Positions 13,058-20,028 of a DNA stretch of 64,000 bases are shown in pieces. Within the stretch, counting starts at the first letter, position 1, and each line of letters starts with the position of its first letter. Both the position numbers and the translations under genes were made by a program. Source of the DNA: Chryseobacterium sp. CY350 (lineage in GTDB: Bacteria; Bacteroidota; Bacteroidia; Flavobacteriales; Weeksellaceae); assembly GCF_027945075.1 (NCBI RefSeq), contig NZ_CP116034.1:2728001-2792000 (forward strand), in the 5' to 3' direction. Below the pieces are notes generated by a model that saw only the letters and a list, made by a program, of their open reading frames with translations, was not told the DNA's origin and searched no databases.

Positions 13058-13128
13058 TCCATTCAGAGCAAAAATATGACCATTCGGTACAATAAATTAA
13101 GAGATATGATGCATCCTGTCTAATTTTG
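13058..13128 (+). promoter_or_regulatory. LytTR-type operator and promoter of the TonB-dependent receptor operon
   Basis: Two 9-bp direct repeats, TCCATTCAG (13058-13066) and ACCATTCGG (13079-13087), start 21 bp apart, which is the spacing known for LytTR-domain dimers. Exactly 33 bp after the second repeat comes GTC-TAATTTTG, whose TAATTTTG (13121-13128) is a TAnnTTTG box. No TTTG is found at -33, as expected for an activated promoter. The same layout occurs at 16113-16183 and 18526-18597. The box also shows that the ATG at 13145, not the upstream TTG at 13130, is the start. Confidence 0.65.
13069..13076 (-). promoter_or_regulatory. Candidate -7 element for sodC
   Basis: On the minus strand this reads TATTTTTG (TAnnTTTG), 34 bases before the sodC ATG. 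It sits between the two LytTR-like repeats of the divergent promoter. Confidence 0.45.
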
Positions 13129-13144
13129 CTTGAAACTTATAGAA

Positions 13145-15388
13145 ATGAACTCGATTTTTCAAAAAATAATATTTGCTCTATTCCTTTTTTTGTCTGTTTT
13201 GAATTTTGCCCAAGTGAAAATCTCAGGAAAAGTAACTTTTAAAAATAAAGGAATTGCTGAGGTAAATGTAACATTAAAAGACACTTACGACGGCGCAACA
13301 ACCGGTGCAAATGGAAGTTTCTCTTTCGAAACTTCTGAAAAAGGTGCACAAAAGTTAACATTTAGTCATGTAAAATATTATGAAATTGAAAAGGAAATTA
13401 ATATTGATGACAAGGATCAAACGATCAACGCAGAAGTAAAGGAACAGATCAACGAAATCGACGCAGTCGTAGTTTCCGCAGGATCAATCGAAGCTAGTGA
13501 CAAAAAAAGAGCAACGGCTTTGCTGACGCCGATCGACATTTACACTACTGCAGGAGCAAATGGACAGATTTCTTCGGCTTTAAATTTTCTTCCCGGCGTT
13601 CAGAAGGTGGGCGAAACCGAAGGATTATTTGTACGTGGTGGAACCGGAACAGAATCTAAAATTTTTATGGATGGTAGCTTGATCAACAATTATTTCTCCA
13701 GCTCTGTTCCGGGAATTGCGGGACGAGATCGTTTCAATACATCACTTTTTAAAGGAAACATTTTCTCAAGTGGCGGCTATTCTGCCTTGTACGGACAGGC
13801 TTTGTCTGGAGCTTTGATGCTCGAAAGTGTAGATCTTCCGGATCAGAGTTCTTACGATTTTGGTGTTTCTCCTATTTTTTTTAATGGAAGTTTTCAGAAA
13901 TTAAGCAATAACAAAAATTCTTCTTACGGAGCTTCTGTAGGATATTCTAATCTAAATCTGATGAAAGAAATTTTAAACTTCAATACAGATTTTATCAATG
14001 CTCCGCAAGGTTTCAACGGAGATATGAATTTTAGATTAAAGACGAACTCCGGCGGTTTTATCAAATATTACGGAATGTTTGACACCAATACAATGGGCGT
14101 AAAAAACGAAAGTTTAGAGCCAAATTATAATTTTGCTTTGGTAAAACTGAAAGGAAAAACTACCTATCATAACCTTTCTTTCAAACAGAAATTCGGGAAA
14201 TATCTTCTGAATGCGGGAACTTCTTACTCTTACAATCAATCAGATTTAAAATTTTCGACAGAAACAAATAATGCAGAAAGTGGTGAATCACAAATACTGA
14301 ATACCGGAAATTATATCAATCTTAAAGCAGTTGTCGATAGAAAGATCAATAAAATAAGTGCTTTGCGTGGTGGTTTTGAAGTAAATCACGCCAATGAAAA
14401 GCTCAACTTCGGTGAAATCAATAAAAATTATCGTGATCTTATTTCTGCTGCTTTTGTGGAAACAGATTTGGGTTTCAGCAATCATTTGTCAGCAAAAATT
14501 GGAGTGAGAGCAGAAAATTCATCTTATTTAAATAAAACCAACATCGCGCCGCGTTTTGCATTGGCTTATCGTTTGGCAAAAGACTGGACAACTTCTTTCG
14601 CCTACGGTTTGTTCTTTCAAAGCCCTGAAAGTAAATACATTAACTCTTCTGCAAAACTAGATTTTCAACAATCGCAGCACTTTATTTTTCAGGTTCAGCG
14701 ATCAACAGAAGGTAGAAGTTTGAGGTTTGAAGCATTTTACAAGAAATATGACGAACTGATAAAAACACAGAATATTGTTCCCAATGCAGATCAGAATCAG
14801 CAGGTTCAGGCTGCCTTCAACAATAATGGATATGGTTTTGCAAAAGGTCTGGAAGTGTTTTGGAGAGACAAAAAAACATTTGAAAATATTGATTATTGGA
14901 TCAGCTATTCTTTTCTGGATTCCAAACGAGATTTCCTGAATTATCCTTTCAGTTTAAAACCGAATTTTGCTTCCGAACACACCATTTCTGCAGTCGCAAA
15001 AAGATTCATCCCGAAATGGAAAACAGGGATCAACCTTTCATACACTTACGCTAAAGGACGACCTTATTATGATATTATTACGAAAGAAATAAATGATGAA
15101 AACGTAAATTATCCGCGAACGCAAGGAAAATTAAAAGATTACAATGCGTTAAACCTAAGCTTCAATTATCTTCCGAATCTTGGTAAAAAAGACGCGAAAG
15201 CATTTACCATATTTGTGATAAGTATTTCGAATGTTTTAGGAAATAAAAATGTGTATGGCTATAATTTTTCGCAAAACGGAACCCGAAGTTCTGCTGTTGT
15301 TCCGCCGGTCAATACTTTTGTTTTTGTCGGAATGTTCATCAGTTTCGGGGTCGATAGAACGCAGGATGCTATCAATAATAATCTTTAA
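13145..15388 (+). CDS. TonB-dependent outer membrane receptor
   Basis: The 747-residue precursor has a signal peptide ending 'LNFAQ', then a carboxypeptidase-regulatory-like beta domain (residues about 25-100, 'ISGKVTFKNKGIAEVNVTLKD'). A TonB-receptor plug follows ('ALNFLPGVQKVGETEGLFVRGG', near residues 143-164), then a beta barrel of about 500 residues with many alternating aromatic strands and a C-terminal strand 'FVFVGMFISFGVDR'. It should take up an unknown substrate, powered by TonB-ExbBD (a set lies at 41560-43556). No SusD partner is present, which argues against a classical glycan-utilisation pair. It is followed by a small secreted protein gene and preceded by a LytTR-like operator. 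Confidence 0.9.
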   Translation: MNSIFQKIIFALFLFLSVLNFAQVKISGKVTFKNKGIAEVNVTLKDTYDGATTGANGSFSFETSEKGAQKLTFSHVKYYEIEKEINIDDKDQTINAEVKEQINEIDAVVVSAGSIEASDKKRATALLTPIDIYTTAGANGQISSALNFLPGVQKVGETEGLFVRGGTGTESKIFMDGSLINNYFSSSVPGIAGRDRFNTSLFKGNIFSSGGYSALYGQALSGALMLESVDLPDQSSYDFGVSPIFFNGSFQKLSNNKNSSYGASVGYSNLNLMKEILNFNTDFINAPQGFNGDMNFRLKTNSGGFIKYYGMFDTNTMGVKNESLEPNYNFALVKLKGKTTYHNLSFKQKFGKYLLNAGTSYSYNQSDLKFSTETNNAESGESQILNTGNYINLKAVVDRKINKISALRGGFEVNHANEKLNFGEINKNYRDLISAAFVETDLGFSNHLSAKIGVRAENSSYLNKTNIAPRFALAYRLAKDWTTSFAYGLFFQSPESKYINSSAKLDFQQSQHFIFQVQRSTEGRSLRFEAFYKKYDELIKTQNIVPNADQNQQVQAAFNNNGYGFAKGLEVFWRDKKTFENIDYWISYSFLDSKRDFLNYPFSLKPNFASEHTISAVAKRFIPKWKTGINLSYTYAKGRPYYDIITKEINDENVNYPRTQGKLKDYNALNLSFNYLPNLGKKDAKAFTIFVISISNVLGNKNVYGYNFSQNGTRSSAVVPPVNTFVFVGMFISFGVDRTQDAINNNL

Positions 15389-15428
15389 ATTCAATTCAAA
15401 TATAATTTAACCCTTTAATATTAAAACA

Positions 15429-16073
15429 ATGAGAAAACAAATTTTAAGTTTTACTTTAGTTCTGTTCAGTCTACTGTCTTTCGCTCAGAACACTTACGAA
15501 AAAGTAATGAAAGAAAAAATTGCCAAAATCGAAATCTGCAAAACGCCTGAAGATTTTCAGATTTTAGCCAACGATTTTCAGAGAGTTGCCGACAAAGAAA
15601 AAGGAAAATGGCAGCCGAATTATTATGCCGCATTTTCCTATATTCAAAAAGGAAGAATTCTGATGAGAGAAAACAAAGTACAGGGATTAGATGAGGTTGC
15701 AGATCAGGCTCAGAAATATGTAGATGAAGCCAAAACGGTTGATAATAATGCAGAAGTGCAGCTGTTGCAGAAAATGATTTACTCTCTGAAAATGATGGTC
15801 AATCCTATGGAAAGATACATGACTTATGGAATGAAAGCGACAGAGCAACTTGCCGCGGCAGAAAAACTTGATCCGAATAATCCTAGAATTGCCTTAATCA
15901 AAGCTGAAGATGTATACTTCACTCCTGAACAATATGGCGGAAGTCAGAAAAAAGGAATTGAACTTTTTAAATTAGCTCGGGAAAAATTTAATTCTTACAA
16001 AGTAAAAACAGAGATAGATCCGAATTGGGGAAAATCTGAAGCCGAATACTTTTTGAATCAGACTTCAAAATAA
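15429..16073 (+). CDS. Secreted helical protein, possibly TPR-like
   Basis: The 214-residue precursor carries a clear signal peptide (MRKQILSFTL..., ending 'LLSFAQ'). The rest is alpha-helical with TPR-like character, for example 'NYYAAFSYIQKGRILMREN' and 'AEKLDPNNPRIALIKAEDV'. A conserved-looking stretch 'YFTPEQYGGSQKKGIELF' comes before the end. The gene begins 40 bases after the TonB-dependent receptor stop, without a terminator between, so the two are probably cotranscribed. It may be a periplasmic accessory of the receptor; this is inference from position. A strong terminator follows. Confidence 0.82.
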   Translation: MRKQILSFTLVLFSLLSFAQNTYEKVMKEKIAKIEICKTPEDFQILANDFQRVADKEKGKWQPNYYAAFSYIQKGRILMRENKVQGLDEVADQAQKYVDEAKTVDNNAEVQLLQKMIYSLKMMVNPMERYMTYGMKATEQLAAAEKLDPNNPRIALIKAEDVYFTPEQYGGSQKKGIELFKLAREKFNSYKVKTEIDPNWGKSEAEYFLNQTSK

Positions 16074-16083
16074 AGCAATCTGA

Positions 16084-16111
16084 CAAACCTTCTCCGGAAG
16101 GTTTGTTTTTT
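16084..16111 (+). terminator. Terminator of the TonB-dependent receptor operon
   Basis: CAAACCTTC (16084-16092) pairs perfectly with GAAGGTTTG (16097-16105) around a TCCG loop and is followed by six T residues. Confidence 0.9.
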
Positions 16112-16112
16112 C

Positions 16113-16183
16113 ACGGTTGAGTTATGAAAAATGACCATTCGTAAACAAATACTTTCCGCTGAAAATAATTTCGTCTACTTTTG
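16113..16183 (+). promoter_or_regulatory. LytTR-type operator and promoter of the histidine kinase operon
   Basis: ACGGTTGAG (16113-16121) and ACCATTCGT (16134-16142) start 21 bp apart. After a further 33 bp comes GTC-TACTTTTG, with the TAnnTTTG box at 16176-16183. The stretch ATGACCATTCG is identical to that before the TonB-dependent receptor gene, and the spacing to the promoter box is the same to the base. It implies that the LytTR regulator encoded downstream controls its own operon. Confidence 0.65.
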
Positions 16184-16299
16184 AATCATTAAATTTAATC
16201 ATCCTATCGCTAAGATTTTAAGGTATTAATTTCAATAAAGTTCAGCGATTGCAACACTTTTCCCGAATATTGGGATGAATCAAAAATATTTATCTACAG

Positions 16300-17619
16300 A
16301 TGAAACGCAAAGAACTTATCGTATTATTCTGGATCTCGATGGGAACATCGCTTTTCTTCTTTTTCGCTTTTACTGATGAAAAAACGGTTGAGAACTTTAT
16401 GCTCAACATGCTTATATCGTTCATGTATTCTTTCGTTCTGGGAGTAGGAAACGGGTTGATCAACAATTTTCTGAACAAACGGTTTCCATGGTCTGAAGCA
16501 ACGTCAAAGAGAGCTGTAATCAGTATTGTGTCGATACTTATTGCCAATACTATTCTGGTTTATTTCTGTAATTACATGAATTTTGTGGTTTTTCAAAAGG
16601 CCGTTTCTACACCAGAATATTTTTCTGGCAGATATAATTTTATCAATTGGTTTACGATTAATATCGCATTGCTGATTTCTGCTTTTCTTCACGCCAAAGG
16701 TTTCATGGATGAGCTTAAAAAAACTTCCAGAAAAGAGGTCGTGGAGCAGAAACTGATCGCAAAATCTGCCAACGCTCAGTTTGAAAGTCTTAAAAATCAA
16801 CTTGATCCGCATTTTCTTTTTAATTCTTTAAATGTATTAAGCTCATTGATCGATGAAAACCCGAATCAGGCTCAGAAGTTTACAGCCTCAATGTCAAAGA
16901 TTTACCGATATGTTTTGGAGCAGAAGGATAAAGAACTGGTAACGGTGGAAGATGAGATTGAGTTTGCAAAAACTTATTGCCAATTATTAAAAACACGTTT
17001 CGAAGACAGTGTAGATTTTGAATTTAATGTGAAAAATGAAGATATGCGAAGATTTGTAGTTCCGCTTTCCCTTCAGCTACTTTTGGAAAACTGCATCAAG
17101 CATAATTTTGCAACATCTTCAAAACCTTTATTAATTAAAGTTTTTTCTGAAAATGATACGCTATGTATTGAAAACAATCTGCAAATTCGTGAACAGATGA
17201 AAGAAAGTGCAGGAATTGGCTTGGCAAATATCGTTCAACGGTATTCTTTACTAACGAAGAAAAATGTTTTCATTGAAAAATCTGAAGATTATTTTAAAGT
17301 GAAATTACCCATACTTTCTGAAAAACCAAATATTGTAAGCCACACTATTGACACAGAAGATAAAGCATACGAAAGGGCTCAAAAACGGGTAAAAGAGATC
17401 AAAGGTTTCTATGGAAATTTGATTTCTTACTGTATTGTTATTCCGTCTTTGGTGATTTTAAATTTAATTACAAATCCGCATAGCTATTGGTTTTACTGGC
17501 CGATGTTGGGTTGGGGAATGGGCGTTGTAGCGCATGGAGTAAGTGTTTTTACGATCGGAAAAGGTTGGGAAGAAAAGAAAATCAGAGAAATTTTAGAAAA
17601 AGATCACTATGGAAAATAA
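16300..17619 (+). CDS. LytS-type sensor histidine kinase with C-terminal 2TM domain
   Basis: The 439-residue protein has four predicted membrane helices in residues about 7-130, then a His_kinase (LytS/YehU-type) domain. The phospho-acceptor is His171 in 'NQLDPHFLFNSLNVLSSLI'. The N-box 'LQLLLENCIKHN' is at 259-270 and the glycine box 'SAGIGLANIVQRY' at 303-315. Unusually, the kinase continues into a 2TM domain (residues about 355-433: 'AYERAQKRVKEIKGFYGNL', two helices, 'GWEEKKIREIL'), the same family as the three small proteins encoded downstream. It should phosphorylate the LytTR regulator at 19285-20028. The next gene starts inside its 3' end. Confidence 0.93.
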   Translation: MKRKELIVLFWISMGTSLFFFFAFTDEKTVENFMLNMLISFMYSFVLGVGNGLINNFLNKRFPWSEATSKRAVISIVSILIANTILVYFCNYMNFVVFQKAVSTPEYFSGRYNFINWFTINIALLISAFLHAKGFMDELKKTSRKEVVEQKLIAKSANAQFESLKNQLDPHFLFNSLNVLSSLIDENPNQAQKFTASMSKIYRYVLEQKDKELVTVEDEIEFAKTYCQLLKTRFEDSVDFEFNVKNEDMRRFVVPLSLQLLLENCIKHNFATSSKPLLIKVFSENDTLCIENNLQIREQMKESAGIGLANIVQRYSLLTKKNVFIEKSEDYFKVKLPILSEKPNIVSHTIDTEDKAYERAQKRVKEIKGFYGNLISYCIVIPSLVILNLITNPHSYWFYWPMLGWGMGVVAHGVSVFTIGKGWEEKKIREILEKDHYGK

Positions 17620-17908
17620 GAGAGAACAGGAAATCCGTTACAGAGAAGCGGAAAAAAGGATGAAGAAAATCAAAGGATTTTACATTCACGCCATTGTATA
17701 TTTTTGTGTAAACGTCTTTATCGTTGCATCAAAAGCAATAGATCGTGAGCAAGGAGAAAATTTTTGGGATTGGGATTTAATCAGCCTTCCTTTCTTTTGG
17801 GGAATTGGTTTGGCAGCACACGGACTCAGCGTTTTTCTGCCAACTTTTATTCTTGGCAAAGATTGGGAAGAGAAGAAAATTAAAGAACTTATGAATAAAA
17901 ATAAGTAA
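17609..17908 (+). CDS. 2TM domain protein
   Basis: A 99-residue protein of the 2TM family: an N-terminal charged helix with 'YREAEKRMKKIKGFYIHAI', two membrane helices (about residues 27-45 and 58-80), and the closing motif 'GKDWEEKKIKELMNKNK'. It overlaps the 3' end of the kinase gene by 11 bases in another frame, so translation is coupled. The same motifs occur in the kinase C-terminus and in the proteins at 18640-18939 and 18958-19233. Its function is unknown. The context suggests a membrane component of the LytS/LytTR signalling unit. Confidence 0.88.
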   Translation: MENKREQEIRYREAEKRMKKIKGFYIHAIVYFCVNVFIVASKAIDREQGENFWDWDLISLPFFWGIGLAAHGLSVFLPTFILGKDWEEKKIKELMNKNK

Positions 17909-17909
17909 A

Positions 17910-18475
17910 ATGAATGCACTGTATCTGTTGTTTATATCTCTATTGCTGTATGGTTTCTGAGTGAGATTTATTACAAACAAAAATTGAAATCCGGAGAAAA
18001 AGACCAGAAAAAAGATCAGTCGACACTTAATATTTTATGGATCGTGATCCTTCCGTCTGTATTTTTTGCGGTATTAATTTCGAGATTTACGGCTTTTCAG
18101 ATCAAAAACCAGTATTGGATTTTATATTTAGGTGAAGCCTTAATTGTTGCCGGAATATTCTTCCGTTGGATAATTATAAAATCTCTGGGCAAATTTTTCA
18201 CGGTAGACGTTGCTATTAAAGAAGATCATCAGATCAAAAAAGAAGGTTTTTACAAATATGTTAGACATCCTTCTTACTCATTTGCGCTTCTCACTTTTTT
18301 AGGATTAGGATTGTTTCTAAATAATTGGCTTTCTCTATTTGTAGCATTTGTGCCGACATTTTTAGGGTTTTTGTACCGTATCAAAGTTGAGGAACAGGCT
18401 TTACTACAGAAATTCGGAAATGAATATCTGGAATATCAGAAGAAAACAAAAAAGCTGATTCCTTATATATTTTAA
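17910..18475 (+). pseudogene. Isoprenylcysteine carboxyl methyltransferase-like membrane protein, apparent frameshift
   Basis: An ATG at 17910, one base after the previous stop, opens 'MNALYLLFISLLLYGF' and then meets TGA at 17958. The -1 frame carries straight on with 'WFLSEIYYKQKLKSGEKDQ' and is open to 18475, but has no ATG, GTG or TTG of its own before 17984. Joining the frames near 17950-17956 gives a normal N-terminal membrane helix, so one base seems to be missing. The rest is a typical ICMT/PEMT-family protein: several helices, 'YKYVRHPSYSFALLTFLGLG', and 'KVEEQALLQKFGNEYLEYQKKT' near the end. These enzymes methylate with SAM, but the bacterial substrate is unknown. It may be a real mutation, a sequencing error, or translation from the internal TTG at 17984. 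Confidence 0.7.
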
Positions 18476-18497
18476 TTGAAAATAAACTTCTATAAAG

Positions 18498-18525
18498 ATC
18501 CCGATTCGCTTGAATTGGGATTTTT
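18498..18525 (+). terminator. Terminator after the ICMT-like gene
   Basis: ATCCCGATTC (18498-18507) pairs with GAATTGGGAT (18512-18521), one wobble pair, loop GCTT, then TTTTT. It separates the kinase operon from the second 2TM unit. Confidence 0.82.
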
Positions 18526-18597
18526 GCTGTTCAGTCGGCAAAACTGACGGTTCGGTTATATAAAGTTGAAATGAGGTTGTTTTCCGCCATACATTTG
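18526..18597 (+). promoter_or_regulatory. LytTR-type operator and promoter of the second 2TM/LytTR unit
   Basis: GCTGTTCAG (18526-18534) and ACGGTTCGG (18547-18555) start exactly 21 bp apart. TACATTTG (18590-18597, TAnnTTTG) follows 34 bp after the second repeat, and a TTG at 18566-18568 is 21 bp before it. TGAC-x-x-TTCG is shared with the other two operators. The repeat begins right after the T-tract of the preceding terminator. Confidence 0.6.
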
Positions 18598-18639: not shown

Positions 18640-18939
18640 ATGGAAAATTTATCATTCAACAAAGAAAATTTCGCGTACGAGAAAGCAGCAAAAAGAGTAA
18701 AAGAATTAAAAGGATTTTATGGAAATCTTACTTCATACTGTCTTGTAATTCCTTTTTTACTGGTGATTAATCTGTTGACATCTCCAAGCGAATTGTGGTT
18801 TTACTGGCCGATGTTAGGTTGGGGAATCGGGATCGCAGCGCATGCAGCCAACGTTTTCGGAATAGGAAAAGACTGGGAAGAGAAAAAAATACAGCAGTTG
18901 ATGGAAGAGGAGAGAAGAAACAAAAAATCATTTAATTAA
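18640..18939 (+). CDS. 2TM domain protein
   Basis: The start is placed at the ATG at 18640 (99 residues), which follows the promoter box by about 42 bases. An in-frame TTG at 18631 adds nothing conserved. The protein is nearly collinear with the C-terminal domain of the kinase at 16300-17619: 'AYEKAAKRVKELKGFYGNL' matches 'AYERAQKRVKEIKGFYGNL', 'LWFYWPMLGWGIG' matches 'YWFYWPMLGWGMG', and 'GKDWEEKKIQQLM' closes the domain. This points to duplication of the domain within the locus. Its function is unknown. It leads the transcription unit that contains the LytTR gene. Confidence 0.88.
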   Translation: MENLSFNKENFAYEKAAKRVKELKGFYGNLTSYCLVIPFLLVINLLTSPSELWFYWPMLGWGIGIAAHAANVFGIGKDWEEKKIQQLMEEERRNKKSFN

Positions 18940-18957: not shown

Positions 18958-19233
18958 ATGAAATATAATCAGGCTTACGACAGAGCACAACAACTAAAAA
19001 AATTCTACAAAAACCTTCTATGGTTCGGAATTGTTGCTGTAATTATTACGATTAGAAATTTTTACCGAACAGGAGATTTTGAAAGATCAGTTTTTAGCGG
19101 CTCAATCATCCTTACCATTTGGGGAATTATTTTAGCGGTAAAAGCCGTAAAACTATTTGTTTTAAATGATGAATGGGAAAACAAAATCCTGGAAGACGAA
19201 CTTAAGAAGACTAAAAAACCAATTAATTTTTAA
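18958..19233 (+). CDS. Divergent 2TM domain protein
   Basis: A 91-residue protein, the most divergent 2TM member here. It retains the N-terminal 'AYDRAQQLKKFYKNLLWFG', two membrane helices (about residues 20-35 and 48-68) and a closing acidic/basic helix 'NDEWENKILEDELKKTKK' that matches the 'DWEEKKI' ending of its paralogues. It lies 18 bases after the previous gene and 51 before the LytTR gene, with no terminator between, so all three are probably cotranscribed. Its function is unknown. Confidence 0.83.
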   Translation: MKYNQAYDRAQQLKKFYKNLLWFGIVAVIITIRNFYRTGDFERSVFSGSIILTIWGIILAVKAVKLFVLNDEWENKILEDELKKTKKPINF

Positions 19234-19284: not shown

Positions 19285-20028
19285 ATGATCAGAACGCTCA
19301 TTATAGAAGACGAAAAACCTGCCGCAAGAAAAATTGAAAGAATGCTGAGTTTATTTCCTGAAATTGAGCTTGTTGCAAAGATAGAATCTGTGGAAGAAGG
19401 CGTAGAATGGTTTACACATAATGAACATCCACAACTGATATTTTCAGACATTGTTTTGGGAGACGGTCTATCGTTTGATATTTTTGAAAAGATTCGTACA
19501 AAGGCTTTTATAATTTATACAACTGCTTTTGATCAATATACTTTGAAAGCTTTTAAACTCAACAGTATTGATTATTTATTAAAACCGATTCTGGATGAAG
19601 ATCTTAGCAGCGCGATTGAGAAATACAAATCGTTCCTACCGGATGATAACTCCGGAAATGTGCAGGAAATTAAGCAGTTAATTAAAAAAGAGAAAACTAC
19701 GCTTTCTAGAATTCTGGTGAAAATTGGTTACAATTTAAAGATTGTTCAGACGCATGAGGTCAGTTGTTTTTTTAGTGAAAACAAAATCGTTTATTTACAA
19801 ACCAGCGAGCGAACATATCCGTCAGATTTTACGCTCGATGAGCTTGAAGAAGTTTTAGAAGAAAAGAAATTTTTCCGTGTCAACAGGCAATTTATCATCA
19901 ATTCTGAGTACATCAAAAATATTCATACTTCACCAAATTATAAGGTAGAATTGAATTTTCAGCCTTCCGAAGAAATTACCGTAAGCCGAGATCGGGTAAA
20001 AGATTTTAAAGACTGGCTAGTAGGTTAA
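19285..20028 (+). CDS. LytTR-family response regulator
   Basis: The 247-residue protein has a receiver domain (residues 1-120: acidic pocket Glu8/Asp9/Glu10, phospho-acceptor Asp55 in 'LIFSDIVLGD', Thr79/Thr80, and Lys100 in 'DYLLKP') and a C-terminal LytTR DNA-binding domain ('RILVKIGYNLKIVQTHEVSC', 'FFRVNRQFIINSEYIKNIH', 'EEITVSRDRVKDFKDWL'). It should be the partner of the LytS-type kinase at 16300-17619. LytTR domains bind two 9-bp repeats about 21 bp apart. Such pairs lie at 13058, 16113 and 18526, so this protein probably controls those three promoters. The gene ends 22 bases from a convergent gene. Confidence 0.95.
   Translation: MIRTLIIEDEKPAARKIERMLSLFPEIELVAKIESVEEGVEWFTHNEHPQLIFSDIVLGDGLSFDIFEKIRTKAFIIYTTAFDQYTLKAFKLNSIDYLLKPILDEDLSSAIEKYKSFLPDDNSGNVQEIKQLIKKEKTTLSRILVKIGYNLKIVQTHEVSCFFSENKIVYLQTSERTYPSDFTLDELEEVLEEKKFFRVNRQFIINSEYIKNIHTSPNYKVELNFQPSEEITVSRDRVKDFKDWLVG

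Follow-up and report, generated by a model that had tools for sequence, protein, structure and literature searches.

The question raised by a 64,000-nucleotide stretch of the Chryseobacterium sp. CY350 genome (the window) was which protein acts at the paired direct repeats found ahead of three of its promoters, all close to the gene of a response regulator with a LytTR domain (19285–20028), and whether it switches the genes behind them on or off. A first-pass annotation of the window had proposed an autoregulated LytTR regulon, and this proposal was supported by conservation of the repeats upstream of orthologous genes, by their co-occurrence with the regulator across genomes and by their presence at unlinked genes. 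From these sequence comparisons, it is highly likely that the three sites are operators to which the regulator binds in tandem, activating its own locus and, in relatives, also a hydrolase gene. The operator would thus very probably be the regulator's own control site, and the LytS-type kinase encoded at 16300–17619 is its most likely partner.

Each of the three predicted operators, which lie on the plus strand like all other features described here unless stated, consists of two 9-base-pair (bp) repeats with a period of 21 bp, followed by a predicted -7 box. Operator 1, in the receptor promoter (13058–13087), reads TCCATTCAG-12-ACCATTCGG-33-TAATTTTG, the numbers being the distances in bp, with the box at 13121–13128. 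Operator 2, in the kinase promoter (16113–16142), reads ACGGTTGAG-12-ACCATTCGT-33-TACTTTTG with the box at 16176–16183, and has two mismatches to the pattern of the relatives. Operator 3, in the promoter of the 2TM-2TM-regulator unit (18526–18555), reads GCTGTTCAG-12-ACGGTTCGG-34-TACATTTG with the box at 18590–18597. The first-pass annotation had described the repeat pairs starting at 13058, 16113, and 18526, the distances of 33, 33, and 34 bp from the inner repeat to a TAnnTTTG box, the TGACnnTTCG common to the three sites and the GTC ahead of the box in two cases; all of these were found in the letters, the GTC being at sites 13058 and 16113. The half-site also fits the LytTR consensus given in that annotation. 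The 12-bp gap, seen at the three sites and in most orthologous promoters, falls within the 10–13 bp by which the 9-bp direct repeats of LytTR operators are separated according to PMC11347149.

The first-pass annotation had reasoned that a random distribution across the genome would speak against a regulon. In the single-contig genome of CY350 (4,090,637 bases), the paired pattern RTTNRG-N10-TGACSRTTCG had three exact matches in 4.09 Mb, all at this locus, and all three copies of the half-site ACSRTTCG in the window were inner repeats of the operators. When the promoter box was added to the pattern and up to three mismatches were permitted, four matches were found at a distance of 33 bp (control, 0) and five at 34 bp (control, 1). 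Against this box-extended pattern the three window sites had 0, 2, and 0 mismatches; an unrelated match at 2132228 also had two, so that site 2 is not distinctive by its own letters. The five matches outside the window, one with two mismatches and four with three, provided no convincing further member, their gene context not having been inspected, and only the three promoters were found as a regulon in this genome. It is because they are conserved in relatives that the sites stand beyond chance.

To describe this conservation, the genes of the cluster were mapped by tblastn in 80 loci with relatives of the regulator. Lack of conservation upstream of orthologues was the other result that the first-pass annotation had regarded as fatal; in the relatives, period-21 repeat pairs were present upstream of 52/53 receptor, 48/72 kinase, and 45/76 2TM matches, the corresponding numbers in shuffled sequences being 1.6, 2.2, and 2.0 regions, and those for six neighbouring genes 0–6. 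The 2TM count is too low because many of the best tblastn matches were the kinase's own C-terminal 2TM domain; all 2TM rows were kept in it, including some whose upstream region is kinase coding sequence. The inner repeat was 33 or 34 bp from TAnnTTTG in 47 of the 52 receptor sites, 48 of the 50 kinase sites, and 45 of the 47 2TM sites found. Positions C2, T6, C23, and T27 were conserved at 97–100% in each promoter class and several spacer positions were variable, the former figure being biased because site selection rewards those letters. A scan of the 1,552,524 bases around the 80 regulator orthologues gave 163 matches at up to two mismatches, 162 of them on the coding strand, and the reversed pattern gave none in the same bases at up to three mismatches. 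At up to one mismatch, all 145 matches had the box at 33 or 34 bp when distances of 32–35 bp were permitted. A coding-strand site was present in 51, 65, 73, and 77 of the 80 loci at up to 0, 1, 2, and 3 mismatches, respectively, and the three loci without a site contain just 129, 319, and 628 bases ahead of the regulator. Where another gene comes ahead of the kinase, as in several other genera, the site precedes the leading gene.

Within the genus, the architecture was found at least once at up to one mismatch in 118/118 genomes sampled (the 33-bp form in 111 and the 34-bp form in 112) and the reversed pattern in 0/118, counts that are partly in-sample because both the pattern searched for and the E-value cut were picked with part of the data already seen. 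In a sample of 148 genomes of the order, 42 had a match with the 33-bp distance, the only one scanned, at up to two mismatches, and seven had a reversed match. Close orthologues of the regulator, defined by E below 1e-59 (a cut placed at a gap in the list, the next match having 4e-54 and 41% identity), were present in 39/148 of these genomes. The operator occurred in 38 of the 39 genomes with a close orthologue versus 4 of the 109 without one, and the reversed pattern in 1/39 and 6/109, respectively. Outside the family of CY350, the operator was present in 18/19 genomes with the orthologue versus the same 4/109 without it.

The sites also persist at genes away from the regulator. The first-pass annotation had named the receptor and kinase operons and the 2TM-LytTR unit as the controlled genes; this stood for CY350, and in relatives they are joined by an unlinked secreted hydrolase and, in a few genomes, by other genes. 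In one genus of the same family (g3), separate operators precede the receptor gene, the TPR gene, the kinase operon, and a hydrolase gene. In one genome (G220), the distance from the receptor site is 48 kb to the kinase site, at whose locus the regulator gene is found, and 157 kb to that of the hydrolase. Among the Chryseobacterium matches listed, 20 further sites were taken because of their seeming lack of linkage; 16 precede the gene of a secreted alpha/beta-hydrolase, three that of a ChaN/TraB-like protein (no Pfam match; named from its letters), and one is that of a 2TM-regulator operon. The hydrolase matches Hydrolase_4 and was found in 38 of the 118 genus genomes at E up to 1e-60; the CY350 genome has no close copy, the best match showing 26% identity over residues 57–169. 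When 30 of the 38 hydrolase loci were taken, 27 had the operator at up to two mismatches and one more at four, and the reversed pattern never did better than seven mismatches. Thirteen of the 30 were already known through the operator listings; among the remaining 17, 14 had the operator at up to two mismatches. A hydrolase with 63% identity (tblastn) also lies downstream of the site in locus L144, and in the Flavobacteriaceae loci opened, sites were found ahead of receptor, TPR, 2TM, DUF2141, and DUF2807 genes. A diffusible regulator is best supported by this recurrence of one site at genes that are neither related nor linked.

Two further observations were made on these unlinked genes. The hydrolase genes of three genomes (G058, G062, and G105; loci L177, L193, and L180) each have one internal stop codon and have kept the operator at up to two mismatches. 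In locus L155 of a Flavobacteriales genome (G199), the operator at position 1644 on the minus strand lies ahead of a DUF2807 gene; DUF2807 has been united with the envelope-stress 'Toastrack' domain (PMC11237479), and the link to envelope stress at this one locus is suggestive only.

Promoter elements were then considered in relation to the mode of regulation. The TAnnTTTG box is present at all three window sites. Promoters of the Bacteroidota type consist of such a -7 box and a TTG/TTTG -33 element. At the 2TM-regulator promoter of the window, a probable -33 TTG (18566–18568) lies 10 bp past operator 3 and 21 bp ahead of the box, and TTG occupied the same place in 43/45 orthologous 2TM promoters. 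It was found 21 bp ahead of the box in just 5/47 receptor promoters, and the 48 kinase promoters had TTG at 17 bp (18), 20 bp (11), or 19 bp (1). The centre of the operator lies 48–49 bp ahead of the -7 box, which would place it near -60 if transcription starts 5–7 bp after the box. The majority of LytTR regulators are activators with binding sites upstream of -35 (PMC11347149). Activation and positive feedback are inferred here because the operators lie upstream of the -33 region, as for most LytTR activators. Between the operator and the -7 box, 14/52 receptor promoters had the inner half-site once more in inverted form, at a length of at least 7 bp, with 0.4 expected from shuffles (L010, L011, L017, L020, L024, L026, L027, L030, L034, L036, L037, L052, L053, and L065); its arms covary (GCC/GGC, ACC/GGT), and no copy of this length was found in the kinase or 2TM promoters or in the window.

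The CY350 genome encodes three LytTR proteins, and a second kinase-regulator pair near 3.79 Mb (3790883; L151/L242) has a direct repeat of its own, ACTTGGTGAA or close to it, also with a period of 21 bp. This repeat was found at period 21 in 30/30 loci taken from 58 matches in 60 genomes, CY350 included, and TAnnTTTG followed 31 or 32 bp after ACTTGG in 28 of the 30. The next commonest spacing in these loci was 10 bp (24/30), which perhaps reflects a TATATATA run. Two exact ACTTGG pairs are present in CY350, each near the 3.79 Mb locus; at one mismatch the yield was background-like (18 matches versus 18 reversed, one of the 18 being at the locus). Further copies at 3789211 and 3790261 have no box at the expected distance, and only the copy ahead of the kinase has one. 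The presence of one ruler with different sequences at the loci of two regulators supports the LytTR assignment and suggests insulation. In the genomes of two relatives (G108 and G102), a LytTR regulator with 40% identity to that of the window ends an operon that by its letters resembles RND efflux, with a weak period-21 repeat pair upstream (L162 at 13766, minus strand; L163 at 2438, plus strand), about 32–33 bp ahead of TTTACTTTTG-type boxes.

Several results weigh against the regulator binding and activating these promoters. The half-site ACSRTTCG was no more frequent in the window than expected (3 copies versus 4.4), and the paired pattern at up to two mismatches gave 65 matches in the CY350 genome versus 40 reversed, a background-like yield for which it was dropped as a regulon finder. 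The kinase site was absent or degraded in seven Chryseobacterium loci (L007, L008, L012, L013, L021, L033, and L058), and the sole exception among the 39 order genomes (G213, locus L160) has kinase, 2TM, and regulator genes that look complete, yet no repeat was detected. The in-sample choice of pattern and cut and the restriction of the order scan to 33 bp also count here, as does the smaller size of many order genomes without the regulator, although the reversed control did not show the same contrast. Taken with the window alone, the half-site count would fit chance sites or functionless remnants of promoter duplication. We regard this explanation as scarcely credible, since the conservation tests already contradict it: the half-site positions hardly vary, in contrast to much of the spacer (site selection, again, rewarding those letters), the sites recur at unlinked and unrelated genes, and the reversed control was empty in the 80 loci (1.55 Mb) and the 118 genus genomes.

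It is also very improbable that a different, unlinked transcription factor binds the sites and that the LytTR gene is merely its neighbour or target. A factor encoded elsewhere could have the same phylogenetic distribution, but the length and spacing of the repeats match published LytTR sites (PMC6193735; PMC11347149), the presence of the operator tracks the regulator orthologue, and at the second LytTR locus of the same genome a different sequence likewise has a period of 21 bp. Somewhat less remote, though still unlikely, is that the same regulator binds and mainly represses, or toggles between repression and activation; the direction is deduced from operator position, repressing LytTR proteins exist, such as CoxC, which acts through an operator overlapping -35 (PMC11347149), and the inverted half-site of the receptor promoters could be an extra, repressing contact. 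However, the tandem repeats end 33–34 bp ahead of the -7 box and upstream of the -33 region, which is the position of a LytTR activator, and the scarcity of TTG in the receptor promoters is expected if they depend on one.

In the mechanism favoured here, with the regulator 19285–20028 as activator, the active and presumably phosphorylated protein would bind the two 9-bp direct repeats, two helical turns apart and with a consensus in relatives of about ACCRTTCRG. The bound regulator would have its centre near -60, just before the -33 region and, at the 2TM promoter, 10 bp before TTG, and would recruit RNA polymerase to a presumed Bacteroidota-type TAnnTTTG promoter. The receptor, kinase, and 2TM-regulator operons would thereby come under positive feedback, and in relatives the same regulator would also drive the unlinked secreted alpha/beta-hydrolase. 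The signal is probably an envelope or outer-membrane cue.

The gene order at the locus is Cu/Zn superoxide dismutase (minus strand), receptor-like protein, TPR-like protein, LytS-type kinase, 2TM protein, methyltransferase, two 2TM proteins, and the receiver-LytTR regulator. The TonB-dependent receptor-like protein (13145–15388) matches CarbopepD_reg_2, with Plug slightly under the Pfam cut-off. It is followed in its operon by a TPR-like secreted protein (15429–16073), which has no Pfam match in the window; a distant relative in L152 matches TPR_14. The LytS-type histidine kinase (16300–17619; His_kinase, PF06580) has a C-terminal 2TM domain, and Pfam also identified 2TM proteins at 17609–17908, 18640–18939, and 18958–19233. 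The start codon of the ICMT/PEMT-family methyltransferase (17984–18475) is ambiguous: the frame has no in-frame ATG at the expected start (17910–17990), the ATG at 17910 opens a run of 16 codons before a stop, and the open reading frame as listed begins at TTG 17984, so there may be a frame change or an alternative start. The regulator, the proposed binder of the three operators, has a receiver (PF00072) and a LytTR domain (PF04397), both above cut-off, and is 96% identical to its counterpart in Chryseobacterium edaphi; its best NCBIfam models are LytR and BtsR, at 113 bits and far under the cut-offs of 375 and 246. In the spacer of operator 1, CAAAAATA (13069–13076) reads TATTTTTG on the minus strand and is a possible -7 box of the divergent superoxide dismutase gene, a promoter that regulator binding might then block. 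The same letters are found in L001 and are absent from most other listed receptor-site spacers, and the superoxide dismutase was not retained as a target, this possible box being its basis.

A LytTR tandem operator with autoregulation is of a known kind, and the geometry is a known LytTR one. LytTR Regulatory Systems (LRS), in which an inhibitory membrane protein is paired with the LytTR regulator, are not known to have a histidine kinase as partner. Their members HdrRM and BrsRM have autoregulatory direct repeats, separated in most cases by 12 bp and situated about 10 bp ahead of -35, a layout shared by the 2TM promoters, and pair the LytTR protein with a membrane protein (PMC6193735). At our locus such repeats lie close upstream of the operon promoter, presumably with the same autoregulatory role; the locus differs from LRS in its receiver-containing regulator and in the PF06580 kinase of its cluster. 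For 'LRS-like' operons of Bacteroides, 11-bp repeats 11 bp apart have been predicted 11 bp ahead of TGTA-19 bp-TATCTTTG (PMC6193735); they end 34 bp (11+4+19) ahead of TATCTTTG, as operator 3 does with its box, whereas the repeats here are of 9 bp and 12 bp apart. What also sets our system apart from LRS is the presence of three operators at a locus and of unlinked targets in relatives. With LytS/LytR and BtsS/BtsR it shares a PF06580-type kinase and a receiver-LytTR regulator; distinguishing features here are the 2TM domain of the kinase and the further genes of the locus, for 2TM proteins, a receptor-like protein, and a methyltransferase. AgrA of Staphylococcus aureus, from a Gram-positive host, differs in promoter elements, signal, and kinase type. 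It is similarly a LytTR response regulator and binds a pair of direct repeats, centred near -60, ahead of its own promoters (PMC4227749). The first-pass annotation had called the operator form little described in Bacteroidota; this holds for Flavobacteriales, for which none was found in the open-licence papers searched, and less so for Bacteroides, with the similar operons predicted. In the accessible parts of the open-licence literature, we found no description of this operator, its regulon, or the shared ruler for Flavobacteriales or Flavobacteriia; those of PMC10197871, PMC10057207, and PMC5395568 mention LytTR genes in Flavobacterium and no operator. PMC6222199 concerns an OmpR-family regulator and was set aside.

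These results suggest a precise operator-promoter rule for LytTR regulators in Flavobacteriia. With about even confidence, we propose that the LytTR systems of this class share one rigid ruler (direct repeats with a period of 21 bp and a -7 box about 31–34 bp further on) and have different repeat sequences, so that paralogues in one cell would be insulated positive-feedback switches: ACCRTTCRG for the kinase-2TM-receptor system, ACTTGGTGAA for the second pair, and perhaps yet another sequence for efflux operons. The kinase-2TM-receptor system would then be an envelope-response circuit not characterised so far, with the 2TM proteins as built-in modulators and the secreted hydrolase as accessory output. 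Because the second system combines this ruler with a different sequence, insulation between paralogous LytTR regulators can be put to the test, and the definition of a conserved regulon of uncharacterised genes, comprising 2TM proteins, a TonB-dependent receptor-like protein, and a secreted hydrolase, offers a route to finding the signal.

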